From Methanosalsum natronophilum (lineage in GTDB: Archaea > Halobacteriota > Methanosarcinia > Methanosarcinales > Methanosarcinaceae): 64,000 bases of DNA. A program made the position numbers and the translations under genes. Numbering within the stretch: the stretch's first letter is position 1; the number at the start of each line of letters is the position of its first letter. The stretch spans positions 1 to 64,000 of the forward strand of contig NZ_JANUCS010000013.1 of NCBI RefSeq assembly GCF_024808815.1. Direction: 5' to 3'. The notes beneath the pieces are model-generated. The model searched no databases. It worked only from the letters and a program-made list of their open reading frames with translations, and was not told the origin of the DNA. This document shows, piece by piece, positions 2,001 through 37,694 of this stretch.

Positions 2001-2005
2001 TTATG

Positions 2006-2848: not shown

Positions 2849-3096
2849 CAGAACACTCCACCAAGAATGAATACAAGTACTACCAAGATTATACCTACTA
2901 ATAACTCGATTATAACAGCAGTCAGTTTCGAGTTCATACCATCGATACGACCTTCGATCCGCACTAACCATCCACGGATCTCATTGAGTTCCTTTTCTCT
3001 ATCATCTTTTTCAGCTCTAATAGCATCACGGATCTCAACACGTAAACATCTTTGATTCTCAGTACACTCCGAACGAGTGACAGGCTCATTGTTCAT
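2848..3096 (-). CDS. Small coiled-coil protein with C-terminal membrane segment (XhlA/holin-like?)
   Basis: This 82-residue protein has a polar, charged N-terminal two thirds (KDDREKELNEIRGWLVRIE, heptad-like) and one strongly hydrophobic C-terminal segment, about residues 59-81. The layout resembles the haemolysin XhlA family of phage lysis-associated proteins, or a spanin-type membrane anchor. It overlaps both neighbours (ATGA at 3093-3096 and TGATG at 2848-2850), so it is part of the connector operon. A membrane protein between two connector genes is unusual for a virion module. Holin activity is only a guess. Confidence 0.65.
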   Translation of the reverse strand: MNNEPVTRSECTENQRCLRVEIRDAIRAEKDDREKELNEIRGWLVRIEGRIDGMNSKLTAVIIELLVGIILVVLVFILGGVF

Positions 3097-3842: not shown

Positions 3843-4060
3843 TTTCCTTTACGTGAAGATCTCTTCCTGTTTGTTGCAGATGAACCTCCATTCTCAATAT
3901 TTTGTGTTTCTTCACTCAACTCATTAATGACCTCTATGGAATTACCAAGTTTATTGATATTCTCTTTACCACCGATCTCGAAAATATCATGTTTTTTGTA
4001 AATAGTCTCTGTACCACCTGCATCAGTACAAAGGTTCTCCACAAGTACCTTGACCTTCAT
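3839..4060 (-). CDS. Small virion-module protein of unknown function
   Basis: This encodes 73 residues: a beta-rich N-terminal half (MKVKVLVENL, then YKKHDIFEIGG) and a polar tail ending in SSRKGK. The N-terminal half resembles small phage proteins that lie just after the capsid gene, but I do not recognise a family with certainty. It starts 15 bases after the capsid gene stop and overlaps the connector gene by four bases. It is therefore expressed with the head-tail genes and may be a connector accessory or a decoration factor. Confidence 0.6.
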   Translation of the reverse strand: MKVKVLVENLCTDAGGTETIYKKHDIFEIGGKENINKLGNSIEVINELSEETQNIENGGSSATNRKRSSRKGK

Positions 4061-4075
4061 TCGCAGTACCTCAAT

Positions 4076-4942: not shown

Positions 4943-4943
4943 T

Positions 4944-5474
4944 TCAGATCACACTCCTTACAATGATCTCAGTAGCACCACTCGTTGCATTTATTGACTC
5001 TTCAGCATACGCAATTACCTGTCCACCAGGTACTAATGAACCCTGGAGTTCAGGTGTAGCACCCTCAACCTCATCTGCAGTATCCGTACCCTCTTTTACT
5101 GCAAGTGATACTGCAGCTTTCAGTTCACCATTATCACCAGCAACTAATGGATCTCCCTTACCCACATTCTCTGACTCTGCTAACATAGCTCTGATATAGA
5201 ACCCGCCACCGTTTAGTACAGCCACCTGTGCCTCAGCACCATAGATAGATATGGGGTCCTTTGGCCGAAATACGGGATTGGTCTGTTCATACCCTAACCA
5301 CCCGATAGGTTTCCCATCAGCCGTGTTTATAACAATATCCGAATCATTAGTACCTTTTTTCACTAACCTACCTGGATACATATTAGTCACAGTTTCAATG
5401 TTCAGTTCCTGAATCAGCGGTACACCCGCAGCGATTATTCTATTGTTTGGTTTTTGTATACCTGTATATACCAT
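4944..5474 (-). CDS. Capsid decoration protein
   Basis: This 176-residue protein lies between the scaffold and the major capsid gene. It contains repeated short beta segments with Gly-rich turns (AVLNGGGFYIRAML, KGDPLVAGDNGELKAA, GSLVPGGQVIAYAEES), a pattern shared with phage decoration proteins of the DUF2190 type that stabilise expanded heads. The start ATG follows GGAGTGGG by about six bases. There is no signal peptide or membrane segment. The order protease, decoration, capsid is common in tailed viruses. The assignment rests on order and beta-repeat style. Confidence 0.7.
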   Translation of the reverse strand: MVYTGIQKPNNRIIAAGVPLIQELNIETVTNMYPGRLVKKGTNDSDIVINTADGKPIGWLGYEQTNPVFRPKDPISIYGAEAQVAVLNGGGFYIRAMLAESENVGKGDPLVAGDNGELKAAVSLAVKEGTDTADEVEGATPELQGSLVPGGQVIAYAEESINATSGATEIIVRSVI

Positions 5475-5475
5475 A

Positions 5476-6000
5476 TTAGACCCACTCCTTTTTCACAGAA
5501 TCAAATCTACCTACTGTCGTTGCAGTTTGGTTCGAATCCGCTGGATACTGGATTACATTATTCTTTGATGCATGGACCTTAATACCCTCAAACTCCATTG
5601 CAAGCTTTTCTAATTCACTTGCATTCAGATGCTGATATTCATCTGGTTTAGTGTCCAGGTTTAATTCTTGTCTTGCAGCCGTAAGTTTTTCCAGAGCTAA
5701 TGAACGACTTAGTTCATCTTTATAGTCCTGGATCCTTGCAGCAGCGATCTCATTTGATTTGGATTCGATCAGTTCATTCACCTTGGACATGGGAACTGAA
5801 GTTGCTCTATCTTTTTCATAGGATGCGAGAACAGTTTCCAGTTCATTGACCCTGGATTGGAGTTTAGTGTTCGATACTTCGATCTCTTTAAGGTCAGTTA
5901 TTTGTCTCTCTTTCTCCCCGAGTTGACGTTGTAGTTCTTCAACTCTAGGTTGAATATTTTCAGATTCAGATTCAGTTTCAGTTTCGGTTTGTTTGGTCAT
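5476..6000 (-). CDS. Nested in-frame scaffold protein (internal start)
   Basis: Inside the protease gene, codon 167 is an ATG preceded by GGAGTGG at good spacing (eight bases). Starting there gives a 174-residue protein consisting of a Thr/Glu/Ser-rich tail and the coiled coil, with the C-terminal helix QHLNASELEKLAMEFEG. That is exactly the scaffold part without protease. The same arrangement is established for lambda C/Nu3. The internal ribosome site is seen directly; its use is inferred. The ratio of scaffold to protease would be set by this start. Confidence 0.65.
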   Translation of the reverse strand: MTKQTETETESESENIQPRVEELQRQLGEKERQITDLKEIEVSNTKLQSRVNELETVLASYEKDRATSVPMSKVNELIESKSNEIAAARIQDYKDELSRSLALEKLTAARQELNLDTKPDEYQHLNASELEKLAMEFEGIKVHASKNNVIQYPADSNQTATTVGRFDSVKKEWV

Positions 6001-6498
6001 AGAGTCCACTCCAGTACTTTGACTTTGAATTGGTGTATATTTTGATGAAAAGAACAGTTGATTGGGTTCGAGTTCAGGTTCGGTCTTGGATGCAACAATA
6101 TTGAACTTAGCTTCATCCCATGCAGGTTTTCGAACAAGGGTCACACTCCGATTCTCATAACCGTTCACCCACCCCTCATCTTCTATTGACAATGCTTTTC
6201 CATAAACTGACCATGTGGGTTCCCAGGTACCCTCAAGGATCTTCTGTTGAGCTAAAGTATCAGTGATATCTGCTCGTATCCGGATCTCATCTCCAGTTGA
6301 CCATACATCCACCACCCTACCTATCTCGGTCCTGGGATCTTCAGTCACATCACAACCATGTTCAGAATCACGAGTACATACACGGACAACCGAACTTAGA
6401 AGAGACTTAACTGCATTCTCTATCTCACTTGATGGAATACCCCACCCGTTCTTATTGATCATACCAATTGGAAACGCAGTGCCTTCAATTAAAACCAT
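5476..6498 (-). CDS. Prohead maturation protease with C-terminal scaffold domain
   Basis: The 340-residue product has a protease-like N-terminal domain (1-165) and a scaffold-like C-terminal half. Candidate catalytic residues are His47 (in DSEHGCDV, followed by IGRVVDVW) and Ser118 (in NRSVTLVRKPAWDEA), matching the His/Ser pattern of herpes/HK97-type prohead proteases. Residues 180-260 form a Glu/Lys-rich coiled coil typical of a scaffold. The ATG at 6498 lies 13 bases downstream of a 34-bp promoter motif, so its message may be almost leaderless. A second in-frame start at 6000 probably yields the scaffold alone. Confidence 0.8.
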   Translation of the reverse strand: MVLIEGTAFPIGMINKNGWGIPSSEIENAVKSLLSSVVRVCTRDSEHGCDVTEDPRTEIGRVVDVWSTGDEIRIRADITDTLAQQKILEGTWEPTWSVYGKALSIEDEGWVNGYENRSVTLVRKPAWDEAKFNIVASKTEPELEPNQLFFSSKYTPIQSQSTGVDSMTKQTETETESESENIQPRVEELQRQLGEKERQITDLKEIEVSNTKLQSRVNELETVLASYEKDRATSVPMSKVNELIESKSNEIAAARIQDYKDELSRSLALEKLTAARQELNLDTKPDEYQHLNASELEKLAMEFEGIKVHASKNNVIQYPADSNQTATTVGRFDSVKKEWV

Positions 6499-6511
6499 TA
6501 TAAGAAGTGCA

Positions 6512-6545
6512 CGTATACAACCGCTATATAACTTTTATGCAACAG
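6512..6545 (-). promoter_or_regulatory. Viral promoter, copy 1 (head gene operon)
   Basis: A 34-bp element reads CTGTTGCATAAA, an 11-bp centre with TATATA, then GGTTGTATACG on the minus strand. The same element of identical length occurs at 8135-8168. The ATG of the protease gene starts 13 bases after it, and about 26 bases after the end of the TATA core, so transcription should start at or near the start codon. Conserved flanks outside the TATA box suggest binding of a virus or host factor. Confidence 0.7.
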
Positions 6546-6582
6546 GGATATGAGGGGGAAATGCACTCTTTAGCTATCAAAA

Positions 6583-6618
6583 GTGAACTACCACCCTATG
6601 AATAGGGTGGTAGTTCAC
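6583..6618. repeat. Perfect 17-bp inverted repeat between portal and protease genes
   Basis: The arms GTGAACTACCACCCTAT and ATAGGGTGGTAGTTCAC are separated by only two bases. The element is 38 bases past the portal stop and 38 bases ahead of promoter copy 1. It may end the portal transcript or be a processing stem, although no T-run follows on the minus strand. Alternatively it is a small captured transposon end. Such a perfect stem in compact viral DNA is likely to be selected. Confidence 0.75.
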
Positions 6619-6655
6619 ATTTGTTAACTGTATATAATATTGGTGGAAGGTCTCT

Positions 6656-7864
6656 TTATTGCTTTCCATTAAGGGAAAATCCTGCCCAATCCAATACCTG
6701 TTCCTTTGAAAGTATCTCTGCATTATACCAGTCCAGTATATCTTTTCCAGTCATTTGTGGCCTACTGAGTTCTTCGAATTCCAACCATACTGAATCAAGA
6801 GGCCAGTTCTTCATATCTAATCTCATGTTAATGAACTGTTGTACAATGTTCTGGATACTGTGTTGCAGACCTTCAAGCACGACCATCCTGTCAGCCTCGG
6901 AAACGTATCCCGCAGCATACGTGGACCCTTTGGTATCACCCATAGACAAAGGTGTCTGGAACAGTCCTAACTGGATCTCAGCTTCCAATGATCTCTTAAA
7001 GCTCATTACATCAAGTGAACCGTTAGAATCAATTGGTATTACATTTAAACCCACTGCAGCAATATCTTCATTCTCTGACAAGTATTGGTAATCCTCAAGC
7101 CAGGTATCAATGGCGTTTTGAGCATCTTCCATACTGATAAGATTCTGTTCAACCAATTTTTCCAATAATTGAAAGTTTATTAAGTATCGGCTATTCCCAT
7201 ACTTTTTAACAAAAGAGACATACCCGGAATTGATGTTCAACAGGTTTCGGATACTTAACTCTATAGGGTCTAGGAGTGAAGTCCCATACAATCCCCACGT
7301 TTCACGGTCCATGATATCTTTCTGAACACTATCCCACGCATTATATGTACCATATATCACGTCAGTTAAGTTAATATCCTGTTCTTGCACTCGGTTTCCA
7401 GTAACACCTTCATTCACTTTTATTTTATCAGCTGGTGCAGTTAACAGAACATTTTTACTGGATTTTGGGTTAAATCCTTCAGGCCAGATAGTGACTGCAG
7501 GCATATACAGAGGCTTTAATGAAACAGCTTCAGCATTTCCTTCAGGAATTGCGATATAAGTACCATCCCTGCACAGTAACCTTGAAAGTGTCTGTATCTG
7601 TTCTAGGAAATTAACACTTCTGCTCCATTTCTCAAACTCCTTAACATATTTCTTAGCAGTACCATCGAACTGCATGCCTTTAACTAAAGATAAACCTAGT
7701 TTGTTCAGTGAGGTAGAAACATGGGGTGTTGCTGTTGCAAGTTGTTGATAGTACCTGAACCTGTTCTTGGTATCGAACGCATAATATCCACCAATCGAAG
7801 TTGAGGTGTCCCTGCGTTTTATCCCGGAAGATGCTGTTAGAGTAACCGGTTTCTTATATGACAT
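6656..7864 (-). CDS. Portal protein
   Basis: This 402-residue protein is the likely dodecameric portal through which DNA enters the head. The N-terminal part has TATPHVSTSLNKLGLSLVKG, typical of phage portals in which a clip and wing follow two early helices. The middle has DRETWGLYGTSLLDPIELS and the conserved region before the stem, and the C-terminal half has EAEIQLGLFQTPLSMGDTKG followed by AGYVSEADRMVVLEGLQ, which matches portal core helices. It is a little shorter than many portals. It overlaps the preceding small gene by 11 bases and is followed by a strong hairpin. Terminase lies on the other side of the inserted cassette. Confidence 0.85.
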   Translation of the reverse strand: MSYKKPVTLTASSGIKRRDTSTSIGGYYAFDTKNRFRYYQQLATATPHVSTSLNKLGLSLVKGMQFDGTAKKYVKEFEKWSRSVNFLEQIQTLSRLLCRDGTYIAIPEGNAEAVSLKPLYMPAVTIWPEGFNPKSSKNVLLTAPADKIKVNEGVTGNRVQEQDINLTDVIYGTYNAWDSVQKDIMDRETWGLYGTSLLDPIELSIRNLLNINSGYVSFVKKYGNSRYLINFQLLEKLVEQNLISMEDAQNAIDTWLEDYQYLSENEDIAAVGLNVIPIDSNGSLDVMSFKRSLEAEIQLGLFQTPLSMGDTKGSTYAAGYVSEADRMVVLEGLQHSIQNIVQQFINMRLDMKNWPLDSVWLEFEELSRPQMTGKDILDWYNAEILSKEQVLDWAGFSLNGKQ

Positions 7865-8123
7865 ATTCTATCCCCAATTTTGTTAGGAGCAGTACAACTA
7901 CAATTTCCAGTCCCCTACAAAACAAAAAAGCAAACAGATACAAATTATACTTTTTCTTCAGATCCGATTGAAGTTCAGGTGAAATATCTAGGTTCTTGAT
8001 ATTGCTGTACTTTAGTGGGGATTTACGAGTATGAGAGTGAACTATACCACCCACAAAAGCATTGATCTTGGAAGGATCTTCTAACAACTCATAGAGTGAG
8101 TGATAATTTTTAATATGTTGCAT
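7854..8123 (-). CDS. Small protein of unknown function with C-terminal membrane segment
   Basis: I start this gene at the ATG at 8123 (89 residues, MQHIKNYHSLYELLEDPSKI). A longer frame from 8174 runs back through the promoter motif. The ATG lies 11 bases after promoter copy 2, the same geometry as at the protease gene, which decides the start. The N-terminal half is polar; residues about 62-86 are hydrophobic (LYLFAFLFCRGLEIVVVLLL) and may span a membrane. It overlaps the portal start by 11 bases. I recognise no family. Confidence 0.6.
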   Translation of the reverse strand: MQHIKNYHSLYELLEDPSKINAFVGGIVHSHTRKSPLKYSNIKNLDISPELQSDLKKKYNLYLFAFLFCRGLEIVVVLLLTKLGIEYVI

Positions 8124-8134
8124 ACAGGAAACTG

Positions 8135-8168
8135 CGTATACAACCAGTATATATGGTTTATGCAACAG
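8135..8168 (-). promoter_or_regulatory. Viral promoter, copy 2 (portal operon)
   Basis: This is the second copy of the 34-bp element (CTGTTGCATAAA, centre with ATATATA, GGTTGTATACG). It shares 12 leading and 11 trailing bases exactly with the copy at 6512-6545; the centre differs outside the TATA core. The downstream ATG at 8123 is 11 bases away. It would drive the small gene and the portal gene leftward. Confidence 0.7.
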
Positions 8169-8237
8169 TGGCATTCAATGCTTTACATTTTAAAATTCAA
8201 AATATGATGAGGTATTGGTAGCCATTTCAAAGGACCT

Positions 8238-8252
8238 GTTTAAATATAAATA
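8238..8252 (+). promoter_or_regulatory. TATA-type promoter for the GHKL/DUF4325 cassette
   Basis: The plus strand has an AT-rich box, TTTAAATATAAATAG, preceded by an A/G-rich stretch (AAAGGA) in the BRE position. The expected transcription start is about 25 bases downstream, near 8272, just before the first possible start codon (GTG 8285). It points opposite to the viral head genes, so the cassette has its own promoter. Confidence 0.5.
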
Positions 8253-8302
8253 GAAATTAAGAAAGCTTAATAACTTTAAAGAAAGTGTCCTTTGTGGTTT
8301 TA

Positions 8303-9082
8303 ATGCATCTAGAAATACTAAATCAATATATGGAATATTGTAAAATTCGTAATAAAGCTTACAAAACAAAAGTAATTGATCTATCAGAATATTTGTTTTT
8401 ATACCCGACGTGTTTACTTCCCCTAGTTAATTTTAAAAAAGATAATCCGAGAATGAAATATGTTCCCGCACCAGTAAATGTAGAGAAATATATGGCAGTT
8501 GTCGATAAAAGCAATTATTCAGAGCGTGCAACATATATACCAATAATTAACTTACCTCAAAAATATTTAGAGGCTGAAGTAGAAATTGAAAAATTACGTA
8601 AGCATCATAACAATGGAATCAATTATGGCGGAGAAGATGCTTTTAATTACATGATGGGTGAACTTATAGATAATATATATCAACATTCTCATTTCAAAAA
8701 TGCAAATATAATGGCACAAAGATATGAAAAACAAGGCTTTGTGGACATTGCTATATTCGATGATGGTATCAGTATCCCATGCTGCTTTGAAAATCATGGG
8801 ATACATATCGACAATGATTGTGCTGCTATAGAGATGGCTATACAAGGCAAATCTACAAAAAGCCAGGAAAGAGGATATGGGCTTGCAACTACAACAAATC
8901 TATACGTAAATGGGTGTAATGCAGAATTTTTAATAGTTTCCAGAGAAGGTGCATGGTATAAATCGAAAGGTTCCGAAAGGTTTTATAACATCAATGGAAT
9001 ATATAGGTTTAATGGTACTTTGATATCAATAAGAATTCCTTATCCACTAAAAAAAGTAAATCTATATGATTATATTTCATAA
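8303..9082 (+). CDS. GHKL-family ATP-binding protein (partner of DUF4325 protein)
   Basis: This 259-residue protein carries a GHKL (histidine kinase-like) ATPase fold. With the ATG at 8303, the N-box is ELIDNIYQHSH at about residues 120-130, the G1 box is FDDGISIP at about 152-159, and the G2 box is RGYGLATT at about 190-197. The first 110 residues are a separate N-terminal domain I do not recognise. There is no phosphoacceptor His domain, so it is not a classical sensor kinase. A GTG at 8285 is an alternative start. The next gene encodes a STAS-like DUF4325 protein. The pair may act like an anti-sigma/anti-anti-sigma switch, or in defence. It lies in opposite orientation inside the provirus head module. 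Confidence 0.8.
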   Translation: MHLEILNQYMEYCKIRNKAYKTKVIDLSEYLFLYPTCLLPLVNFKKDNPRMKYVPAPVNVEKYMAVVDKSNYSERATYIPIINLPQKYLEAEVEIEKLRKHHNNGINYGGEDAFNYMMGELIDNIYQHSHFKNANIMAQRYEKQGFVDIAIFDDGISIPCCFENHGIHIDNDCAAIEMAIQGKSTKSQERGYGLATTTNLYVNGCNAEFLIVSREGAWYKSKGSERFYNINGIYRFNGTLISIRIPYPLKKVNLYDYIS

Positions 9083-9098
9083 TAAAAGGGAGCATAAA

Positions 9099-9428
9099 AT
9101 GAATTCAGATAAAACTAAAAAAATAAAAATTAAAGATGAAATAAATATACATTTATCGTTAAGAGATTCTGCTGATCTTTTTTTTGATGAAATATCCCTT
9201 GTCAATAAAAATACAAATTTGGTAATTGATTTTGAAGGCATCAAGAGTATTAGTCGTTCCTTTGCACAACAATTTCTTTATAGGGTGGAAAAATCTGAGA
9301 ATAATATTAAATTTGTAAATGAGCCAAATAACATCAAAATGATGTTTGATATAATAAAAGCCAAAGGTAAAAAGCCAAATGTTGTGGTTAGTAACTCAAG
9401 CAATGCAGTAAATCTGTCATCTGCTTGA
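9099..9428 (+). CDS. STAS-like DUF4325 protein
   Basis: This 109-residue protein matches the STAS-like DUF4325 pattern: a strand with INIHLSLRDSADLFFDEISL, then LVIDFEGIKSISRSFAQQFL (the D-F-x-G-I and S-x-S-F core), and a helix with PNNIKMMFDIIKAKG. The ATG at 9099 follows AAAGGGAG at seven bases; a longer frame from 9066 overlaps the preceding gene and is less likely. STAS domains bind GHKL proteins in partner-switching pathways, and the two genes are only 16 bases apart, so a complex is likely. The tail (VVSNSSNAVNLSSA) is polar. Confidence 0.75.
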   Translation: MNSDKTKKIKIKDEINIHLSLRDSADLFFDEISLVNKNTNLVIDFEGIKSISRSFAQQFLYRVEKSENNIKFVNEPNNIKMMFDIIKAKGKKPNVVVSNSSNAVNLSSA

Positions 9429-9732
9429 AAGCGTGCTTTAATGAATTGGTTAACAATTCGGTTAAAACAAGCTCTAGATAGTATAGTAATCACATGGTTT
9501 GATTAATATAGAGAAGAGTTAGAGCTTTACTACCACTGAACATATAGTAGCAAAGCTCTAACTAATTTGGGAGAAATGGGGGTTGGGGGTCTAATTCAGT
9601 GATGCTAGAATTAGAATTAATTAGAACTTTACTACCTAATTAAAGATTTAAACGTTTATTATAAATAGATATCTAATATGGATGAAATATGTTGCACTGT
9701 TACGTGTGTGGATAACTTTGTGTGTGTATATT
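9429..9732. other. Intergenic region between convergent cassette and terminase operon
   Basis: No gene is seen. It holds the hairpin at 9518-9562, and partial copies of the same sequence word (AGCTCTAGATAGTA near 9468 and AACTTTACTACC near 9623), so the hairpin element may have been duplicated. Both flanking operons point into this region. Confidence 0.6.
9518..9562. terminator. Hairpin between convergent operons
   Basis: The arms GTTAGAGCTTTACTAC and GTAGCAAAGCTCTAAC pair at 15 of 16 positions around a 13-base loop. It lies between the end of the DUF4325 gene (plus) and the RHH gene end (minus), so it could stop transcripts from both sides. A run of T is not conspicuous, so archaeal termination here is an inference. 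Confidence 0.5.
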
Positions 9733-9948
9733 TTATTTAACAAACCGCTGATGTTTCTTTTGCAATTTCTCAACCACTCTATCAGCAACCTCATCCATTT
9801 GATTTTCACGCATACGCTCGTGATAATATTTTGCTATAAAATCAATGGCTTCACTGCGGTTACACTCACGTTCTTCCATGATCCTGTGAAGGATGGACAT
9901 TGTTCTCTTTTCAATAGTTGCATATAATCTTAATCTCAAAAGTATCAC
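9733..9948 (-). CDS. Ribbon-helix-helix small regulator after terminase
   Basis: This 71-residue protein has a ribbon-helix-helix look: a strand LRLYATIEKR, helix 1 TMSILHRIMEE, a turn with CNRSEAI, helix 2 DFIAKYYHERM, and a short coiled tail. The GTG start overlaps the terminase stop as GTGA (9945-9948), so it is translationally coupled. It may control the packaging or head operon, or be a small anti-host factor. The next downstream element is the hairpin at 9518-9562. Confidence 0.6.
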   Translation of the reverse strand: MILLRLRLYATIEKRTMSILHRIMEERECNRSEAIDFIAKYYHERMRENQMDEVADRVVEKLQKKHQRFVK

Positions 9949-11357
9949 CTGACCTTGTTAGTTTTTCGAATTAATGTAGATAGATCGATCTTATCTATAT
10001 GCTGTTTTACCATGACCTGTACTGCGTAGGATAAGGTATCCACTTGATCATCATGAGCACCTGTGGGAAACGATAACAGTTCATCTTCAAATTCAGTAAG
10101 CCAAGAACCATGCAGAAAATAGATCGAACCAGATTCCATACGGGCAGCTGCTGGTAATGCCCGTGTTATTTTATCTCTATCAGCTCTCAATTCCCTTATA
10201 GGTAAACCTTCCCTGACAAGCATTTGATAAAGTGTCTTGCCAAGTCCGACAGATTCCACTGCCTGGAATGCTGGTTGCCATCTTGTATACTGTTGTTTGA
10301 ATAAGTTTATCTGATCCGGACTCTCCATTCGAGTCCTTAAAACATCTAAGAGTATTAGATCATTATCAGGTGTTTGGGCCCAGGTAGATAATACGAAATA
10401 ATCCGCTGTTGTACGAGTGGATGCTGCAGGATCACATGTCTGGAACACTCTACAATCCTTATACTTAACTTTCCTTGTATCATTTAATGAGAAAATACCA
10501 TTTTCAAGTTTAGCATACCTGAAATATTCGCGTTTAAATGTACCGCCTTCAAGTGCCTGGGGGCGTTGTTGATATAATGCGTTCCACCAATATGACCCTA
10601 AAGTCTGTTTGATTTCTAGCAGGTCATCTACTGAATATCTTTGTGGGAAAAGAGCAGTACCTAATTTGCGGTCAAGTAGATCGTTCTTCATTGCCAGTGC
10701 AGGTAAATTGATAACAGTCCATTTATCAGACTCTTCTTGTAATAATCTACCAGATAGATCGTCCTGGTGCCACCGTGTCTGGATAATGATCACTGCACCA
10801 CCGGGTTCTAGACGAGTATAGGCAGTGGACCGATACCATTCAACTGCCTTGTTCCTGTATGTCCTGCTGTTAGCCTCTTCCGCATTCTTATGAGGATCAT
10901 CGATTATGAGCAGATCAGCACCTTTACCGGTAATAGCACCACCAACACCTGCTGTAGACATACCACCTACGTGACCTTCAATGTCCCACCGATTGACTGC
11001 AGAAGATCTTGATGCTACACTTATCCCGAACAGTTCAGGCCCGAATTCACTTAATACATTACGAGCTTTCCGACCCCATCCTGCAGCAAAATCGGCTTCA
11101 TATGAAGTTAATATTATCCGTTTGTTAGGGAAATGACCAAGGTACCATGCAGGAAAATATTGAGAGGTTAACATCGATTTCCCATGTCTTGGTGGCATTG
11201 AGATCATTAAATGACCAATTTCACCACGAGCCACTTTGATAAGTGTATCTGATAAGAGCAAGAGATGTTCACCCGGGATCCATTTGAATTGTGTACAGTA
11301 TTGAGTGAACAATGCAGGTGTTGCAGTCCAAGGAATTTGATCAGTTATCATTCTCAT
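9945..11357 (-). CDS. terL: Terminase large subunit
   Basis: This is the packaging motor and nuclease, about 470 residues. The ATPase domain has Walker A in MPPRHGKSM, Walker B in DLLIIDDPH and the coupling-like motif QTRWHQDDL. The C-terminal RNase H-like nuclease domain shows acidic residues in FQTCDPAAS, VESVGLG and HDDQVDTLSYA. The frame is open up to 11402, but ATGs at 11357 and 11351 are the likely starts; the first overlaps the small-subunit stop. It is followed by a small RHH gene. The head genes resume after the inserted cassette at 8.3-9.4 kb. Confidence 0.95.
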   Translation of the reverse strand: MRMITDQIPWTATPALFTQYCTQFKWIPGEHLLLLSDTLIKVARGEIGHLMISMPPRHGKSMLTSQYFPAWYLGHFPNKRIILTSYEADFAAGWGRKARNVLSEFGPELFGISVASRSSAVNRWDIEGHVGGMSTAGVGGAITGKGADLLIIDDPHKNAEEANSRTYRNKAVEWYRSTAYTRLEPGGAVIIIQTRWHQDDLSGRLLQEESDKWTVINLPALAMKNDLLDRKLGTALFPQRYSVDDLLEIKQTLGSYWWNALYQQRPQALEGGTFKREYFRYAKLENGIFSLNDTRKVKYKDCRVFQTCDPAASTRTTADYFVLSTWAQTPDNDLILLDVLRTRMESPDQINLFKQQYTRWQPAFQAVESVGLGKTLYQMLVREGLPIRELRADRDKITRALPAAARMESGSIYFLHGSWLTEFEDELLSFPTGAHDDQVDTLSYAVQVMVKQHIDKIDLSTLIRKTNKVR

Positions 11358-11796
11358 CACTCTCGGTTTCATAGACTTGGTTGATCTTGCGGGACAGTTC
11401 ATTAGCTTTCTTGAGGATCTCTGGAGAATTTACTATACCAACTGCATTAGTAATGTTAACCTGTGGAGTATTATCGGTAAGACCCATCATATCTGCAATG
11501 AATTTGAGATAATCTAATTCTGTACTCCTATCTTCATTTGCAACCAAACTTTTCTTTTCAAGAGTTTTCAGGGCCCTGCGTAAAATACCGGCCTTAGTAG
11601 CACGTTCATCTAACAGTATGAGCTCGGCCACCTTTTCCTTGAATTCAGGTACCTGGTTCCATTTAGTAACGGTTACACGGTTGACACTACACTCATTTGC
11701 AATCTGTTCCTGAGTCATAGTTCCGCTTGCCATCAATTTAGCAGCTTTCAGGCGTTGTCCTGTCCAGTTCCATTTTGTAGTTTTCTGTAAACTCAT
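11341..11796 (-). CDS. terS: Terminase small subunit
   Basis: This 151-residue protein has an N-terminal helix-turn-helix (TQEQIANECSVNRVTVTKW, about residues 28-46), a central helical oligomerisation region (AELILLDERATKAGILRRAL), and a polar C-terminal segment with NANELSRKIN-type helices. This order fits small terminases that select the packaging site. It overlaps terL and the zinc-ribbon gene upstream (by four bases), consistent with a packaging operon. Confidence 0.85.
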   Translation of the reverse strand: MSLQKTTKWNWTGQRLKAAKLMASGTMTQEQIANECSVNRVTVTKWNQVPEFKEKVAELILLDERATKAGILRRALKTLEKKSLVANEDRSTELDYLKFIADMMGLTDNTPQVNITNAVGIVNSPEILKKANELSRKINQVYETESDENDN

Positions 11797-11960
11797 ACAT
11801 CCTCTCTTTCAACCAACTTAACACCACGACTAAGTGTATTAGAAACAATGAACTCAGTTTCACAGTTCGAGCAAGTAACAATGTCCTGTTCCGGTGTCAT
11901 CACGAACAAGGCTACATTACAGCTAGAACAGCGTTTAGATATCGGTTTAAAATTGTTCAT
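11793..11960 (-). CDS. Small zinc-ribbon protein
   Basis: This 55-residue protein has two Cys pairs, CSSC and CSNC, about 20 residues apart, typical of a single zinc ribbon. I start it at the ATG at 11960, which overlaps the stop of the preceding gene in an ATGA; a start five codons upstream is possible. It overlaps the small terminase gene by four bases. Zinc ribbons like this may bind nucleic acid or partner proteins; a precise role is unknown. Confidence 0.7.
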   Translation of the reverse strand: MNNFKPISKRCSSCNVALFVMTPEQDIVTCSNCETEFIVSNTLSRGVKLVEREDV

Positions 11961-12154
11961 ATTCTGATCTCCCACACCAAACCGTTCCTACACCTACCAA
12001 TTTTCTTAATATACCCACGATAATGTGCCATCTGGACAGTACCTCTTTGTCTCAGTTCAATTGGAATATCACTGAACGAGAATATATTGCACCTAACATG
12101 CTGTTTGACCTTCTGCACCCATACACGAGGTGGATCACTACCTTTTCTGGTCAT
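11957..12154 (-). CDS. Small basic protein of unknown function
   Basis: This encodes 65 residues, rich in Arg and Lys (PPRVWVQKVKQHVRC, YRGYIKKIGRCRNG). It overlaps the primase-helicase stop (ATGA, 12151-12154) and the zinc-ribbon gene. I recognise no family. The tight packing with neighbours supports a real gene rather than chance frame. Confidence 0.6.
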   Translation of the reverse strand: MTRKGSDPPRVWVQKVKQHVRCNIFSFSDIPIELRQRGTVQMAHYRGYIKKIGRCRNGLVWEIRI

Positions 12155-14862
12155 GTCCTACACCACCACCCATCCTCGTTCAATTTCTTCATTACCCACA
12201 AACAATTATTATACCCATAACTCTGCCTATGTCCAGGATAATTCCTGCAAAACTCGAAATTAACTTTCTTGATATCATCGATCACAAAATTAGGGTACTT
12301 TTTCTTCACAAAACTGGTCATATCGTAAGCTAAGAGCTTGAGATCGCCATCATTTAAACCTAAAGATTGGTCAAAGTCAGTATTGGAACAGTGATGTGAT
12401 AGCGAATGACCAAAATTTGTGCTGCTATTGATACCGGTTTTATCATCTTTGGGTAGGTCTTGTGGGTCACTATCACACACTATCACATCGCTATCACATA
12501 CATTTTCGCTACCAAGCTCCGACTCGCACATTTTTCCCGGAATATAAGAGAGAGTATTGTGATAGTCATGTTGAAATTGGCTATTCTCACACGTACTATA
12601 CATTTTCTGTTTTTGTGTGATAGTGTATATAATTGTATTATATATTCTATCTATTGTTATTGATTTATCACTATCACATTTAATGTGATGGTCATGTGAT
12701 AGCGTGTGATAGCCACCTGAAACCAACTGTTCATACTCAGTTTTGAAATTATCATATTCTTTCTCGATACAATCCACATCTATATTGACAACATCTTCAT
12801 ACGAGTTAAGACCCAACCTATTATCATAACAGTATACGGTCTTTCTAGTACTCCTGCTATCACTTGATTGTATCGTTACATTTTGTGAAAAAAGGCCAGT
12901 GACCTTTGAAAGTAATCCACCGTCCCCATTTCGGCCTCGCATCAGATACTTTGCAGTGGTCTCACTTTTCCCTATCAGATCAGCTATCTGTCTCGCATCA
13001 ACCTCATGTTTACCAGACATCCATCGCATGACCTTCAGTTCAGTTTCTGTAAGGTTGGTCGCATTACTTTCTGCTAATCCTTTATAGATACTCTTAGCTC
13101 TTCTGAAATCATCGACTGTGGCTAAATATGCATCATGGAACTTTTCACGTTGTTTCACATTATAGAACGTAACAGATTTCAGAATGTCCATGAACATCCC
13201 AAAATTTCGACGATTATCCTTGTTATTCCAACGGATACAATTAGTATATGGAAATACTATCTTATATTCTTCATTTGAACCAAGTATATCAAAAACTGCT
13301 CTGCATACAAGCACATCATCATTTACTATATCTTCAGTGATACCTAACCGTTCCATTCGTGCCTGGTGTTGAAATACTCTCTCATCCTGCTCGGGTGTTG
13401 CGTCAACATCAACTCCAAGAAACCTGTTCCCCATCTGATCATCATCAAAACCAAGCACTGATGTCATCCACCATGATATTCTGGGTGGAATTGAATATTG
13501 TTGAAATTCCTGTTTTTTTACAGTATTATGTTCTGTTGTAGTTTGAAAGTTAGTTATAGACTGTTTAATGGTAGCAACCATATCATCATTCAATTGAACA
13601 TCGTCTGTATAGATGATCGTACCTTTGGTAAGGTCAGGATTATAGAACATCGACTTTGCTGATAGTGAACCACATAAGATTTTATTCTCTGGTAGAAGAT
13701 GTAAGAACTTCTTAGCACCATCAGATTTACCTTTCCCAGAATCACCTGAAGGTTTTATATGAAGACCTTTTGAATTGGTCATATATGTCGATGCTACTGC
13801 ACATGCACAAGCTTCCCCAATAACCCTATCACCCACATGATACTGATTCCATGTATCAACAATGAACTTGAACGCATCACCCTTTTCGAGTAATAGTTTA
13901 GCCCATTCCAACACATGTTCAGGGTATTCTTCAATTTCTTCCTGACCAGTTTCACTCACAAGCATGGGTTCAGGTACTTTTCCCCTTGTATTGATCTCAT
14001 TACAATATTGTGGAAATTCCGTACATAACATCTCAGATCTCCATGGATATCCTTCGATCCTTGACCACTGATAAGAACTGATCTTATGATCAAAATCGTG
14101 CCTGTATATTAATCTGGAGATGAATTCACCATCATCTTTTGAATCGAACCCGTTTGCTTTTAGCTCTGCACAAAGAGCTATCATCAACCTTCGACCATCA
14201 CCTCCATGCAGGATATCAGGTGTTCGTTTCGGGTCAAAAAATTCCTTTACCCATGCTCTGCATTTCGTTATGGCCGACTTTAACCTATTCTCTTCATAGA
14301 TCAAGTGAATTAATCTATTTTTGAAAATATCCGGCATTTTTGGTATATCATCATTTGATATGATCTCGCGGTTCCAACGATATTGTTCACCTGTACAATG
14401 AATCGAGGGTGGTAATACTAGATTCCCACCACCACCTTTGGTATTATCGTTGCGTATATCTATTTTGATGTAAGAATATTCGTGATTTATTAGTTCAGTA
14501 TCATCTTCGTGCTGGAAAAAGATATGTCCCCTGTTCTCAATACGTTTTGAGATGAGCCAGTCAGATATATCAATTCCATCTATCAAATAATCCAGGAAAA
14601 TATCATCATCTATATCAATAACAGTTATTCCACTAACTCTGCCACACACTACACCAATATTATACTGTTTTGAATTATTGTTACTGCAATCCCACCATTT
14701 TTTTATTTGAGAGTCTGTTGGTGGTACTTCCAGATTAGCCCAATTTGATAATATCGGCCTTTTACCAGGTGCAGGTCCATCATCGTATGGTGATGAGAGT
14801 GGATGTATTACCCATCCAAGTTCTTTATACTTGAATGCTGAAGATAGAATATCCTCATTCAT
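12151..14862 (-). CDS. Primase-helicase (prim-pol plus D5/SF3-type helicase)
   Basis: This 903-residue replication protein starts at the ATG at 14862, just after GGGGTGAAGGA; earlier codons overlap the neighbour. The N-terminal part has ELGWVIHPLSSPYDDGPAPG and VSGITVIDIDDD, matching prim-pol domains that make primers. The helicase part has Walker A in PSGDSGKGKS and Walker B in GTIIYTDDVQ, then a Ser-Trp region and sensor-type residues (DQMGNRFLGV). A winged-helix segment follows (KHEVDARQIADLIGKSETT). The linker at 12395-12711 is Ser/His/Asp rich and is encoded by DNA carrying the repeated TATCACA word. The C-terminal 80 residues form another helical domain. Confidence 0.85.
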   Translation of the reverse strand: MNEDILSSAFKYKELGWVIHPLSSPYDDGPAPGKRPILSNWANLEVPPTDSQIKKWWDCSNNNSKQYNIGVVCGRVSGITVIDIDDDIFLDYLIDGIDISDWLISKRIENRGHIFFQHEDDTELINHEYSYIKIDIRNDNTKGGGGNLVLPPSIHCTGEQYRWNREIISNDDIPKMPDIFKNRLIHLIYEENRLKSAITKCRAWVKEFFDPKRTPDILHGGDGRRLMIALCAELKANGFDSKDDGEFISRLIYRHDFDHKISSYQWSRIEGYPWRSEMLCTEFPQYCNEINTRGKVPEPMLVSETGQEEIEEYPEHVLEWAKLLLEKGDAFKFIVDTWNQYHVGDRVIGEACACAVASTYMTNSKGLHIKPSGDSGKGKSDGAKKFLHLLPENKILCGSLSAKSMFYNPDLTKGTIIYTDDVQLNDDMVATIKQSITNFQTTTEHNTVKKQEFQQYSIPPRISWWMTSVLGFDDDQMGNRFLGVDVDATPEQDERVFQHQARMERLGITEDIVNDDVLVCRAVFDILGSNEEYKIVFPYTNCIRWNNKDNRRNFGMFMDILKSVTFYNVKQREKFHDAYLATVDDFRRAKSIYKGLAESNATNLTETELKVMRWMSGKHEVDARQIADLIGKSETTAKYLMRGRNGDGGLLSKVTGLFSQNVTIQSSDSRSTRKTVYCYDNRLGLNSYEDVVNIDVDCIEKEYDNFKTEYEQLVSGGYHTLSHDHHIKCDSDKSITIDRIYNTIIYTITQKQKMYSTCENSQFQHDYHNTLSYIPGKMCESELGSENVCDSDVIVCDSDPQDLPKDDKTGINSSTNFGHSLSHHCSNTDFDQSLGLNDGDLKLLAYDMTSFVKKKYPNFVIDDIKKVNFEFCRNYPGHRQSYGYNNCLWVMKKLNEDGWWCRT
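12395..12711. repeat. Iteron-like cluster of TGTGATA/TATCACA words inside the primase gene
   Basis: Nine exact copies of TGTGATA or its complement start at 12395, 12471, 12481, 12492, 12558, 12616, 12672, 12695 and 12705, with longer forms TGTGATAGCG and CTATCACA. Three lie 10 to 11 bases apart, on one face of the helix. Several are in inverted pairs. They fall in the low-complexity coding linker of the replication gene. This density suggests a viral origin or operator. A coding repeat is the alternative. Confidence 0.65.
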
Positions 14863-14878
14863 TCCTTCACCCCTTACC

Positions 14879-15319
<441 letters not shown>

Positions 15320-15326
15320 ATACCCA

Positions 15327-15572
15327 TTATTCTGAGTAGCTGCTAAGACCAAGGCCAGGGCCAAGGTCATTGTTTTTCTGCTGGATTATTTGACATTGTG
15401 ATTTGGGTACCCACTCGGTCCTATCACCGACCTTGAGCATGTAAGCTTTCTCAGTTTCATGGTCAACAATACATTCCTTAAAATCAATACCATTCTTCTC
15501 ACAGATCCAGTCCTCTACTTCTAATGTTTGGCCAGGGAGTATTGTTGAGTTTGGCTTGATATTAATGATCAT
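15327..15572 (-). CDS. Small early protein of unknown function
   Basis: I start this 81-residue protein at the ATG at 15572, three bases past the RecT stop region; the longer frame back to 15647 lies within the RecT gene. The sequence has IINIKPNSTILPGQTLEVE and a segment DWICEKNGIDFKECIVDHET with two Cys, then VGDRTEWVPKSQCQII, an SH3-like beta pattern. The Gln/Asn-rich tail is polar. I recognise no family; its place suggests a recombination or replication helper. Confidence 0.6.
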   Translation of the reverse strand: MIINIKPNSTILPGQTLEVEDWICEKNGIDFKECIVDHETEKAYMLKVGDRTEWVPKSQCQIIQQKNNDLGPGLGLSSYSE

Positions 15573-15574
15573 TA

Positions 15575-16330
15575 TCAAACCACCTCTTCCTGTGTCATTA
15601 GACCAGAAATACCAAACTGGCGTTTCAGTGCCAAAGCTTCCGCACATTTACTGATCATAGCAGAAGGATATGTTTTCCAGGTAGAACTGTTCTTTTTATA
15701 TTCATTAAATGGTGCGAATTGGAGTACAGGTATTCTTCCTTCGCGTTCAACTACGGCCCATGCACCCACGATCTCACCACGGTCCTTAACTCCAAATGAA
15801 TGTTGTACCTGATTCTCAGCTACATTCATGGTAAACTGATCATTCTCATGCACTACTGCCGACTTGATACCTCTAAACTCAGGGTCACGCTGTGCGATCT
15901 TAAGGTACCCGTCCCTTGACGTCATTATGCATTTGAGTTCAGATGAATAGAATATCTCTTTTAAGAACGGGTCCAACCCATATGTCCTGCAAATATGGAG
16001 AAACATTGCAAGTTCATTATCATCAGCACCTCGTGCAACTGTGTTCGTGATGGTACTCACCTGTTCCTCAGAATATTTTATCGGTTTGGGCTGTAGTTGG
16101 TATACTCTACATTCCTTATCGGTAATTATTTGAGTTTGAACATCATTTCTAGCATATCCCTCGTCACCTGATTTTTCGCTTTGGGCAGCAAGATCTTGGA
16201 TGGCGGGGGTATAGTGTTCATTATCATCTTTTCTAAGAACCTGAGCAATTGCATCTTCTTTCTCAAATCCCTGTTCCACAAGTTCAGCAACTTCTAATCT
16301 CTGTTCAGTTGTCATATTTTCAGTGTTCAT
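15575..16330 (-). CDS. RecT/Bet-type single-strand annealing protein
   Basis: This 251-residue protein resembles phage RecT/Bet annealases. After a variable N-terminus (1-85) it has EEQVSTITNTVARGADDNELAM-type helix sequence, then the conserved core with CRTYGLDPFLKEIF, IMTSRDGYLKIAQRDP, VGAWAVVEREGRIP and YPSAMISKCAEALALKR, and ends near FGISGLMTQEEV. It would anneal strands during viral recombination or replication. The ATG follows AAGGAGAT at good spacing. No exonuclease partner is seen next to it; it may be further away or absent. Confidence 0.9.
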   Translation of the reverse strand: MNTENMTTEQRLEVAELVEQGFEKEDAIAQVLRKDDNEHYTPAIQDLAAQSEKSGDEGYARNDVQTQIITDKECRVYQLQPKPIKYSEEQVSTITNTVARGADDNELAMFLHICRTYGLDPFLKEIFYSSELKCIMTSRDGYLKIAQRDPEFRGIKSAVVHENDQFTMNVAENQVQHSFGVKDRGEIVGAWAVVEREGRIPVLQFAPFNEYKKNSSTWKTYPSAMISKCAEALALKRQFGISGLMTQEEVV

Positions 16331-16349
16331 CTTATTATCTCCTTTTCAA

Positions 16350-16667
16350 TCAATGTTCTGTCATACATCCATTCTTAGCCTCTTCAATGACCTTCTTGAT
16401 AACCTCAGTATCTCTGGTCCCTGTACTGTTCTCAATATAGAACTCAAGTGATTTTCGAATACTTTCAACCTCGTTTGCAACCTCGTTCCTCATCACCACC
16501 CTTTGAGAGAATAACTGTGCTTGTTGTTGTATCTCCTTCTCTCTATCCTTGAGATAAGATTCATTTTTTCTCAACTCTTCAGCAAGAGCAATAATAGTTC
16601 TTTGATGGTATTCTGGAAGAGATGTGAGATTTCGGTACAAGTTAGGTCTCTGAACACACTTTTTCAT
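16350..16667 (-). CDS. Coiled-coil protein of unknown function
   Basis: This 105-residue protein is almost wholly helical and charged (AEELRKNESYLKDREKEIQQ; ANEVESIRKSLEFYIE). It overlaps the preceding gene by four bases (16664-16667) and lies 20 bases before RecT. I recognise no family. It may be a structural partner for annealing or a small regulator. Confidence 0.6.
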   Translation of the reverse strand: MKKCVQRPNLYRNLTSLPEYHQRTIIALAEELRKNESYLKDREKEIQQQAQLFSQRVVMRNEVANEVESIRKSLEFYIENSTGTRDTEVIKKVIEEAKNGCMTEH

Positions 16668-17011
16668 ACCAATACCTCATGGTCCTGTGAATGATCGAAC
16701 ACAATTATACGAGGTCCCGAGAACGGTACAAAATCGTACCTGGTAACACTTCCAGTAACAGAATACATTTCGATCAAATGCTGTAATCTTACCAGAAGAA
16801 AATGTGGACAAAAACCGCGTATCACTACAGTGATCGGATATTCAGTATCGATCTTCTTCTCGGCCCATGTTAAGATCGTCCGTACATCCTGGTCACTTAA
16901 TTCCAGCTTACCTGATGGTGACATTGTACCAATTCGGTTAGGTAACTTATCTATATCAAGTATAACCTCGATCTCAGTACCTCTACAATCATTGCTACTG
17001 TTTCGGTTCAT
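16664..17011 (-). CDS. Small early protein, faintly Csx3-like
   Basis: The ATG at 17011 follows AAAGGAG, which decides the start (115 residues). The N-terminal half has EIEVILDIDKLPN, and the C-terminal half has ITVVIRGFCPHFLLVRLQHL, SVTRYDFVPFSGPRIIV and FDHSQDHE. The order of strand, I-x-G, helix with His, then YD and a hydrophobic strand ending in DH resembles the Csx3/Crn3 ring-nuclease family linked to type III CRISPR. The match is weak: the catalytic Arg after YD is not conserved in place. A fold search is needed. Confidence 0.6.
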   Translation of the reverse strand: MNRNSSNDCRGTEIEVILDIDKLPNRIGTMSPSGKLELSDQDVRTILTWAEKKIDTEYPITVVIRGFCPHFLLVRLQHLIEMYSVTGSVTRYDFVPFSGPRIIVFDHSQDHEVLV

Positions 17012-18899: not shown

Positions 18900-19802
18900 T
18901 TATCGATATCTTATTGTACTTCTAGCAATTATCAGGTTCGAGTTGGCATCAACGAGTTTTAGATTTATTTCTTCAGGTCTTTGAACATAGATTTGATTTT
19001 CAGGAACTGTATTGAATATAGATGTTCCATCAAAAACTACATAACCTTGATCCATTATTATATTCACGTTTTCAGAACCTATGCCGGATACTCTAACTCT
19101 TAAATCATTAAATGATGTAAATGTTTTATCTTTTCTTAAATCGATTATCTGATTGGATCTATCATCACCTATCTGGTCTATATATTCCAATTCTTCTTTA
19201 TTTGCTGTATTGATGTTTATTCTTATATACTTAGCCGGTCCATCCACAGTTGCATAGCCTTGATCTTCTAAATCTTCCAAGGCAACTGGACCAATCCCGG
19301 AAACTCTTGTAATATCATCTAATGATTTAAATGGGCCATGGTCAGTTCTATTATCAACAATCCTCTGAGCCAGGGTATCCCCAATTGCATCTAAATATTT
19401 AGCCATTTCTTCTTTAGTTGCTTTATTGATATTTATTTTGATTTTTGTAGTAACTGATGATAGGTATATGGAATCACCAACAGAAAACAGAGTATTTGAA
19501 GGATAATCAAAGGATTCAACACCATTCACTATAACCTTAACATCATTGCCGTCAAGGTTTATAGAATCCCCACCTAAATGCTGGACTCTAATAATATCAC
19601 CAGATGCCGTTGAATCAACTGTTGTTTTGATGATCACATTTGATGCTGGTGATTGTGGAGATATATCAAATACAACTAGAACAATTATACTTGCACCTAC
19701 AACTGTAAAAAATACCAAAACCAGTGCTGCAATAACAGGTACACTTGCATCTCTTCTTGAGATCAGGTTTGGTACTCTTGTAGACATCAAGACAATTCCC
19801 AT
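18900..19802 (-). CDS. Archaeal pilin-like protein fused to two ComEA-like HhH units
   Basis: The 300-residue protein has an archaeal pilin-type N-terminus (basic ISRRDASVPVIAALV then a hydrophobic segment to about residue 46), a small beta domain (about 55-110, with VQHLGGDSINLDG and VKVIVNG), and two helix-hairpin-helix units at about 123-186 and 194-257. Each unit has the ComEA pattern: ININKATKEE or ININTANKEE, an IGD turn, then RVSGIG. The C-terminus is a short tail. ComEA proteins bind incoming DNA in competent bacteria, so this may be a surface DNA-binding pilin. I list the first ATG; ATG 19787 is equally possible. It has no adjacent pilus genes. Confidence 0.8.
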   Translation of the reverse strand: MGIVLMSTRVPNLISRRDASVPVIAALVLVFFTVVGASIIVLVVFDISPQSPASNVIIKTTVDSTASGDIIRVQHLGGDSINLDGNDVKVIVNGVESFDYPSNTLFSVGDSIYLSSVTTKIKININKATKEEMAKYLDAIGDTLAQRIVDNRTDHGPFKSLDDITRVSGIGPVALEDLEDQGYATVDGPAKYIRININTANKEELEYIDQIGDDRSNQIIDLRKDKTFTSFNDLRVRVSGIGSENVNIIMDQGYVVFDGTSIFNTVPENQIYVQRPEEINLKLVDANSNLIIARSTIRYR

Positions 19803-19962: not shown

Positions 19963-20225
19963 TTAATTATTACTGGATTCACCATCACAATTGTTTTCTT
20001 CCATTATTTGCTTGAAACTTTCAACTGCTGATTTCAAGTCTTCAATTATCTCATTGGCTAGGATATCAGGATCGAGTAGATTTTCAAGGTCTGCAAGACT
20101 TTCATCTTTTAGCCAGAATATATCCGGACTCGTTTTATCCCGTGCTATGATCTCATCATAACTGAACCTGCGAAACCTCCCGATTGGATTATCTTCAGTC
20201 CATGTTTCTTTTCTTTCATGTCTGT
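19963..20225 (-). pseudogene. HsdM C-terminal relic (second type I system)
   Basis: An open minus-strand stretch encodes the end of a type I methylase: TWTEDNPIGRFRRFSYDEII, ARDKTSPDIFWLKDESLADL, then a helical end with DILANEIIEDLKSAVESF. Such sequence is typical of the C-terminus of HsdM families. A stop precedes it and there is no start. It differs from the C-terminus of the intact HsdM at 31924-33966, so a different system was once here. Confidence 0.7.
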
Positions 20226-20262
20226 TTTATCCAAACTTCCTTGGTTCAAGGCTCCTTTGATG

Positions 20263-20385
20263 TTTCAATCGGAAATGATATATTCTTATTTGGCGTAACT
20301 GTATTTTTTCTTAGTTTTTGTTGCATTTGGATCGAATAATACAAAGCTAAGAACACTTTTATTAATTGTGACTGGCAAACTTAGT
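20263..20385 (-). mobile_element. IS relic, inverted copy A
   Basis: This 123-bp segment is, in reverse orientation, about 85 percent the same by eye as 26437-26559. The minus-strand frame reads NKSVLSFVLFDPNATKTKKK. It appears to be the 5' part of an IS transposase whose other parts remain near 26.5-27 kb. The two copies face each other across the hydrolase and McrBC genes. Confidence 0.65.
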
Positions 20386-26436: not shown

Positions 26437-27034
26437 CTAAGTTTGCCAGTCATAAATAATAAAAGTGTTCTTGGCTTTGTATTATTCGATAAAAATGCAC
26501 CAAAAACTAAGAACAAACACAATTAAGCCAAATGAAAATATATCATTTCCGATTGGAACCATTTTAGCAGTTGATTACTTCTATGAATCACTTGATTTTC
26601 TACTTTTTTTGGAAAGCATGAGAAGAATGGAATAGATAGCAACAAGTATAATTTCAGTATAAACAAAGCTCATAAGTGGATTAAGCAAGAATTTGATAGC
26701 AAAAGATGCTCTTCAAATCGAGCGCAAAAAAGATCCCGTGGAAAAAATCATCAATTCTCTCAAAAATGAAATTGAAATCAAACCACTAAGAGTATGGTCG
26801 GATGCTAGCATTTATGGTGCTGTTATCATTGGTTTTATTGCACAATTGTTCATATCGTTGATGCGATATGAGTTCAAAGAACTCAAGTCAACGTCAACAA
26901 AATTCATCAAAAACAGTCTATTGAATTTGACAGTTACCATAGATGTAACTAAAAAACAGACTAAAAATCACATTTATGCCAATTTTGATACAATAAACAC
27001 TCTGATTTTAGTCCCAAAGTGGCTAAAATCATAG
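26437..27034 (+). pseudogene. IS transposase relic, copy B (IS1634-like)
   Basis: Segments of a transposase survive in plus orientation: 26437-26559 (NKSVLGFVLFDKNA; the inverse repeat of 20263-20385), then ISFPIGTILAVDYFYESLDF near 26550-26600, and the C-terminal part at 26693-27034 with PLRVWSDASIYGAVIIGFIA and LFISLMRYEFKEL. The last stretch resembles the end of IS1634-type DDE transposases. Stops and deletions separate the pieces. It is not active. Confidence 0.65.
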
Positions 27035-37169: not shown

Positions 37170-37694
37170 CTAAATCGATGCGATGACTTCCATTGCGAAT
37201 TCAGGTGATGATTTGCTGGAAGACAGATGAGCAAAGGAATGTAGTACAATTTTTTCCTTGGTCACTTTATTGAGATACCATTTGATGTTTCCCACTGGAC
37301 TTTTAACGATTTTGTTTTGTCTCTCTTCATCCTGAGACTCAGCATGAATGAAAACAACGGCAGTATTCTCTATCCTTTCTTCGATTTCGACATCTTCCAC
37401 GCTTTCAATTGTCTTGCTGGAAGCACCAACAGAAAACAGAGTATTTGAGGGGTAATCAAAAGATTCAACACCATTCACTATAACCTTAACATCATTGCTG
37501 TTAAGGTTTATCAGATATCCACCCAGATTCTGGACTCGAATAATATCGCCAGATGCCATTGTTTCAATTGTTGTTTTGATGATCACATTTGGTGATGGTG
37601 ATTGTGGAGATATATCAAACACAACTAGAACAATTATACCTGCACCTACAACTGTAAAAAATACCAAAACCAGTGCTGAAATAAAGCTTAACAC
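37170..37694 (-). pseudogene. Chimera: pilin-like module joined to part of a ThrRS editing domain
   Basis: The 174-codon frame has residues 5-90 almost identical to the pilin-like part of the protein at 18900-19802 (ALVLVFFTVVGAGIIVLVVF; VKVIVNGVESFDYPSNTLFS). From residue 97 the sequence becomes VEIEERIENTAVVFIHAES, then a segment ending HSFAHLSSSKSSPEFAMEVI. The last part matches the archaeal threonyl-tRNA synthetase editing domain (motif Y/F-A-H-L-S-S), but its first half is missing. The basic pilin N-terminus is also absent. It is probably a recombination product, although it is an open frame. Confidence 0.65.
37424..37678 (-). repeat. Pilin-module duplication, copy 2
   Basis: About 255 bp here correspond to 19475-19729, with high identity by eye and the same orientation. 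Both ends diverge abruptly (GCACTGG on one side, TCTGTTGGTG on the other). The module carries the hydrophobic segment and small beta domain and is attached to different C-terminal domains at the two sites. Confidence 0.85.

Follow-up and report, generated by a model that had tools for sequence, protein, structure and literature searches.

A rare archaeal pilin carrying two ComEA-type helix-hairpin-helix domains in Methanosalsum natronophilum

Domain make-up and predicted structure

The window, by which we mean the whole 64,000-nucleotide stretch of the Methanosalsum natronophilum contig that was analysed, contains a single open reading frame at 18900-19802 on the reverse strand that encodes a protein of 300 amino acids. 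Translation probably starts at M6 (19787), as the M-S start is kept in a full-length homologue (genome G123, below). The features of the gene are as follows.

18900..19802, reverse strand: coding sequence of the protein, 300 aa (ORF with Pfam and NCBIfam matches; start probably 19787, M6)
19665..19787, reverse strand: class III-type signal region (MSTRVPNLISRRDA), with a presumed cleavage site, and single transmembrane helix (Pilin_N match, hydropathy and charge)
19455..19646, reverse strand: N-terminal part of the pilin beta domain, residues 53-116, with an HLGGD motif equivalent to EHQGGD (pilin profile; strands predicted with moderate confidence)
19248..19442, reverse strand: ComEA-type helix-hairpin-helix (HhH) unit 1, residues 121-185, hairpins AIG and GIG (HHH_3, 63.5 bits; block pLDDT ~88-96; top fold match ComEA 8dss)
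19032..19226, reverse strand: ComEA-type HhH unit 2, residues 193-257, hairpins QIG and GIG (HHH_3, 39.6 bits; block pLDDT ~67-93)
18903..19019, reverse strand: C-terminal pilin strands, residues 262-300, after the insertion (pilin profile positions 132-160; two strands predicted with low confidence)

An earlier note on this DNA had proposed that the protein fuses a pilin to two ComEA-like units, and this was borne out by profile searches. Pilin_N (PF07790) matched residues 22-94 with 33.4 bits against a curated Pfam cut-off of 25.2, HHH_3 (PF12836) matched two stretches with 97.3 bits (Pfam cut-off 27; best stretch residues 121-180), and the NCBIfam model of the ComEA HhH repeat region, TIGR00426, gave 78.9 bits (cut-off 53.1). 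Because these matches exceed curated cut-offs, the combination of a pilin with ComEA-type HhH units is real and far beyond chance. The full-length comE model of NCBIfam (TIGR01259) scored 92 bits, below its cut-off of 152. The T2SSK profile of GspK (PF03934) also exceeded its Pfam cut-off (33.4 bits vs 24.2), but the same residues are better explained by HHH_3, and the full GspK model of NCBIfam (NF037980) stayed below its cut-off (30.2 vs 130 bits). The solved structures nearest by sequence were EEPD1 and the ComEA proteins 8dss and 8dfk. Judged by its sequence, the protein is an archaeal pilin with a ComEA domain, and neither a GspK nor a ComEA in the full sense.

Only one hydrophobic segment was found (residues ~17-51, Kyte-Doolittle mean >1.6), and residues 1-20 carry three positive charges and one negative. 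With a single transmembrane helix whose N-terminal side is positive, the HhH pair is expected to lie outside the cell. The surface position that had been claimed for the HhH units is thus the predicted one, and the cytoplasmic placement that had been named as a refutation did not occur.

A pilin profile built from 21 ordinary Methanosarcinales pilins matched the protein on both flanks of the HhH pair. The tail TSIFNTVPENQIYVQRPEEINLKLVDANSNLIIARSTIRYR (the last 41 residues, 260-300) aligned to the pilin ending, canonically VKIIDVASQQMIADMNVRF, with a score that 0 of 2000 shuffles equalled, and the same tail match held in the G123 homologue. The match on either side indicates that the pair is an insertion ahead of the last pilin strands and not a C-terminal addition. 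In the predicted structure the insert precedes the last two predicted strands, in a low-confidence model that does not establish their exact order; confidence was good in the HhH part (block means mostly 75-96) but low in the pilin part (block pLDDT ~27-28 in the membrane segment and 48-73 in the beta part). A second model, of the homologue and from a two-sequence alignment, had a low mean pLDDT (54) and repeated the order of elements and the two C-terminal strands. Pilins sought on viral contigs to deepen the structural alignment yielded none. The fold search placed ComEA 8dss at the top (rmsd 1.1 over 66 columns), with no match at E 0.001; the Haloferax pilus appeared as a weak match only, and HhH proteins that do not bind DNA, such as PsbU, were also among the matches.

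Homologues, their distribution and the genomic surroundings

An initial search of the named genomes with the window protein as the sole query gave no match. A search with the protein through all 186 genomes of the window's order yielded one full-length homologue, G123, with 41% identity over the whole length and the motifs DQGY and VSGIG in common. It lies on contig PXAV01000132.1 of Methanosarcinaceae archaeon T3Sed10_220R1, a metagenome-assembled genome (MAG); the code T3Sed10 appears in a study of hypersaline soda-lake sediment (PMC6146748). A profile search of 393 Halobacteriota genomes added a third carrier from another order, G284, whose protein P0004 (309 aa) has Pilin_N and two HHH_3 matches, with the HhH pair placed after a complete pilin and not inside it. 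The Pilin_N scores of the three proteins were 33.4, 36.2 and 32.6 bits (cut-off 25.2), and T2SSK was above its Pfam cut-off in each. The expectation that other archaeal genomes hold the same combination was therefore correct, and the lack of any homologue, which had been named as a refutation, did not occur. The domain order proper recurred within Methanosarcinales in G123 alone of the 186 genomes, and in G284 the HhH units are appended. This difference in layout suggests that pilins and ComEA domains were joined more than once.

A search for ComEA tandems in the 393 Halobacteriota genomes, and in the complete set of 232 from the order of G284, brought up no further fusion. In the genomes searched, ComEA tandems occurred only in pilin fusions, except on one contig of G563; there both the protein and its neighbour look bacterial, in a MAG of 360 contigs, and we set this case aside as probable contamination. 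Single HHH_3 matches in other Halobacteriota were also discarded, those inspected being Tex-like and radical-SAM-like proteins. Two radical-SAM-like proteins of methanogens (L075 and L036) have a single C-terminal ComEA-type HhH, and one of the two is in the window's own genome (G000:C12). The feature is thus confirmed, rare and independently backed by two further archaeal genomes, and we found no account of a pilin-ComEA fusion in the open-licence literature. If G284 is a Methanocalculus, the carriers are all from methanogen groups that are halophilic or haloalkaliphilic. This would fit an HhH tandem that holds DNA at high salt, a coincidence that with three carriers proves nothing.

Within each fusion the similarity between the two units is 0.49, 0.92 and 0.54, compared with at most 0.48 across proteins, which fits a separate duplication or homogenisation of the units in each lineage. 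The G123 pair shows 92% identity at the protein level and 90% at the DNA level. A tree of 81 HhH units on 59 columns lacked resolution and had long branches, so that no bacterial donor can be named. GC and GC3 differ little between the HhH and pilin parts of each of the three genes, so there is no sign of a recent import. A viral or plasmid origin was considered and rejected: there were no IMG/VR relatives, no plasmid match and no PHROGs match, and phages gave only a 45-residue HhH match.

Two further features of the window have to be considered with the gene.

19966-20260, reverse strand: fragment resembling a gene of the sister genome G147 that is type I methyltransferase-like (match to its C-terminal end, 82% DNA identity along 230 bp)
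37418..37684, reverse strand: broken copy of the pilin core, 267 bp, lacking signal peptide and HhH (91% DNA identity; ~18 kb from the gene)

To the left of the gene lie provirus genes (tail, neck, head and terminase), a Prim-Pol protein and RecT. To its right are the methyltransferase fragment, a YdjM-like gene common to G147, a two-gene cluster that by its sequence would be AAA/McrBC-like, and a type I restriction system. When the pilin-HhH gene was compared with the complete sister genome (G147; 2,138,444 bases), it had no DNA match there, and the best protein matches were ordinary pilins. The lack of a DNA match there and the mixed neighbours indicate that the gene is accessory and lies in a variable zone outside a pilus operon; indeed, neither pilus genes nor a pilus operon adjoined the gene at any of the three carrier loci. 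The broken copy is joined in frame with part of an archaeal threonyl-tRNA synthetase editing domain (PF08915, 80.5 bits), in a chimera that spans 37170-37694 on the reverse strand, and 15 of its 23 codons that differ from the pilin core are non-synonymous changes.

Several other observations were made in the window. The genes of the head-tailed methanogen provirus, Prim-Pol and RecT among them, occupy 847-17000, and the head gene has a second match, to the encapsulin family Linocin_M18 (77 bits); within this region, 14879-15370 (reverse strand) encodes a predicted 163-aa protein with an unbroken run of ~22 asparagines. A 123-bp inverted repeat (89%; 20262-20384 and 26437-26559) flanks a 6-kb block with the YdjM-like gene and the AAA/McrBC-like cluster; it is MITE-like and has many copies in the genome of the window and in the sister genome. 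A transposase-like ORF (34.7-35.2 kb) lies ~2 kb away from the broken chimera. At 40899-44441 (forward strand) there is a surface protein of 1180 aa with a signal peptide, a C-terminal membrane anchor and many ~90-aa repeats, which we take to be DUF11-like.

Hairpins, pilus machinery and known systems

HhH domains contact DNA mostly via the backbone, at the hairpins (PMC9747964). The GIG of the second hairpin is retained in all six units of the three carriers. In the window protein the first hairpin reads AIGD in unit 1 and QIGD in unit 2, in place of the canonical GIGP that both units of G123 have; G284 has NVGP and HINE there. With degenerate first hairpins the window copy looks weaker than its G123 homologue. 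The most important lysine of Bacillus ComEA is K164 (PMC9747964), at whose position units 1 and 2 of the window protein have L and R, respectively. As an argument against DNA binding this is weak, since only 13 of the 29 bacterial units checked have K there. The units are acidic (pI ~4.5), with a net charge inside the range of the bacterial controls.

All carriers encode T2SSF platform proteins and are thus probably able to make pili. A search for ComEC (PF03772) gave no match in the window genome, G123, G284 or the sister genome G147, while its control succeeded in 11 of 14 genomes, M. jannaschii among them. Naturally competent archaea have no identified ComEC homologue and an unknown DNA transporter, and pili are needed in Methanococcus (PMC10133366); the absence of ComEC is therefore compatible with uptake. 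PilT-family ATPases are reported to be absent from archaea by Makarova et al. (PMC4858521), which makes pilus retraction uncertain as well. DprA gave only a partial match, in frames of 154-170 aa, and was not counted.

The statement in the earlier note that ComEA and pilins are separate parts in bacteria proved incomplete, as bacterial pilins can contain inserted domains: in ComZ, the competence tip pilin of Thermus thermophilus, a DNA-binding domain is inserted between the penultimate and last strands, and in the tip pseudopilin GspK a helical domain is inserted between strands 3 and 4 (PMC6561018). Like the window protein, ComZ is a type IV pilin with an extra extracellular domain near the C-terminal strands, although its insert is a beta-solenoid and not HhH, and it is bacterial, belongs to a competence locus and has had its DNA binding measured. 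GspK/XcpX of type II secretion resembles the window protein in having a pilin fold and an inserted helical domain related to HhH, the tip position being that of GspK; it differs in being bacterial, we found no DNA-receptor role described for it, and the HhH units of the window protein score far better as ComEA. With ComEA (ComE operon protein 1 of Bacillus and Geobacillus), which heads the fold matches and ranks with the best by sequence, the protein shares the NINxA motif, two helix-hairpin-helix elements per unit, anchoring in the membrane and, by prediction, a position outside the cytoplasm. ComEA itself, however, has one (HhH)2 unit, an oligomerisation domain in Gram-positives, no pilin part, and ComEC as a partner, which was not detected in the carriers.

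From archaeal type IV pilins (PF07790) the protein has the signal region, the transmembrane helix, the GGD motif and the C-terminal strand signature, whereas the ordinary ones that we compared are ~150-170 aa long, have no insert and contain SPVIGVILMVAITV, a stretch that the window protein lacks. Movement of a ComEA-type HhH onto another protein has a parallel in a DNase of the haloalkaliphile Thioalkalivibrio, to which the ComEA-derived HhH gives salt-tolerant DNA binding (PMC4777378), although that protein is a bacterial nuclease and not a pilin. In Streptococcus, DNA capture is held by minor pilins at the tip (PMC12153270).

A candidate DNA-binding pilin and its alternatives

The explanation that we prefer, and to which we would give about an even chance, is that the protein is a rare minor archaeal type IV pilin of the PF07790 class that binds extracellular DNA and works like Thermus ComZ. 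The prepilin, with a signal region that looks right, would be cut by an archaeal prepilin peptidase, and the processed pilin would join or cap one of the pili whose platform proteins are encoded. The two ComEA-type (HhH)2 domains, predicted to sit in the loop ahead of the last pilin beta strands, would then be exposed on the outside, and their hairpins could hold double-stranded DNA outside the cell by its phosphate backbone, with no sequence specificity. The likeliest use would be as a DNA receptor or a DNA-tethering adhesin at high salt, the ComEA module taking the place of the ComZ solenoid. Counted against a DNA-binding pilin are the degenerate first hairpins, the failure to detect ComEC, the distance from pilus genes, the absence from the G147 search, the low-confidence model of the pilin part and, with the qualifications given above, the K164 position and the acidity of the units. 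Transfer of DNA into the cell may follow but would require a channel other than ComEC; uptake via this protein is a further step beyond binding, and one that we think unlikely.

The tandem could instead be a structural or protein-binding head of a GspK-like tip or minor pilin that starts or caps the pilus with no contact with DNA. The T2SSK matches of all three carriers favour this idea, as do the helical insert of GspK itself at the tip site (PMC6561018), the presence of PsbU among the fold matches and the degenerate first hairpins of the window protein. We nevertheless consider it fairly unlikely, since ComEA/HHH_3 outscores T2SSK by 97 to 33 bits, both units of G123 have canonical hairpins, the insertion point is probably different, and the terminal position of the HhH units in G284 is unexpected for a cap built like GspK. 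It is also conceivable that the protein is a membrane-anchored analogue of ComEA that holds DNA at the surface outside any filament, its pilin part supplying no more than a signal, an anchor and a spacer. Bacillus ComEA likewise consists of an anchor, a separate domain and HhH (PMC9747964), SPVIG, a motif of the ordinary pilins compared, is missing from the anchor of the window protein, and none of the three loci adjoins pilus genes. However, the pilin beta domain is retained entire around the insert, down to its last strands, which would be needless in a mere anchor, and we regard this idea as distinctly improbable.

Finally, the fusion could be a useless accessory gene drifting towards decay in a variable island. 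This would suit the lack of a counterpart in the sister species genome, the company of provirus genes, a methyltransferase fragment and restriction systems, the broken pilin-core copy 18 kb away and the degenerate hairpins. On the other hand, the frame of 300 codons is open with both units and the tail intact, and the architecture is kept relative to a homologue of only 41% identity, with DQGY and VSGIG shared, so that we give drift very little credence. A repeated joining of pilin and ComEA, as the layout in G284 suggests, would make a functional link likelier than a single accident.

The earlier note was right on the parts of the protein and their place and partly right on their meaning. A bolder proposal, which we rate as doubtful, is that in halophilic methanogens the DNA-receptor step of transformation is built into the pilus, ComEA having joined pilins at least two times to give a single protein, both pilin and receptor, that would feed a non-ComEC archaeal channel. 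On sequence evidence the protein is a candidate for one that could hold extracellular DNA, with DNA capture as its presumed role. In the little-understood uptake of DNA by archaea, a pilin bearing a bacterial DNA-receptor domain provides a concrete candidate for the first step.
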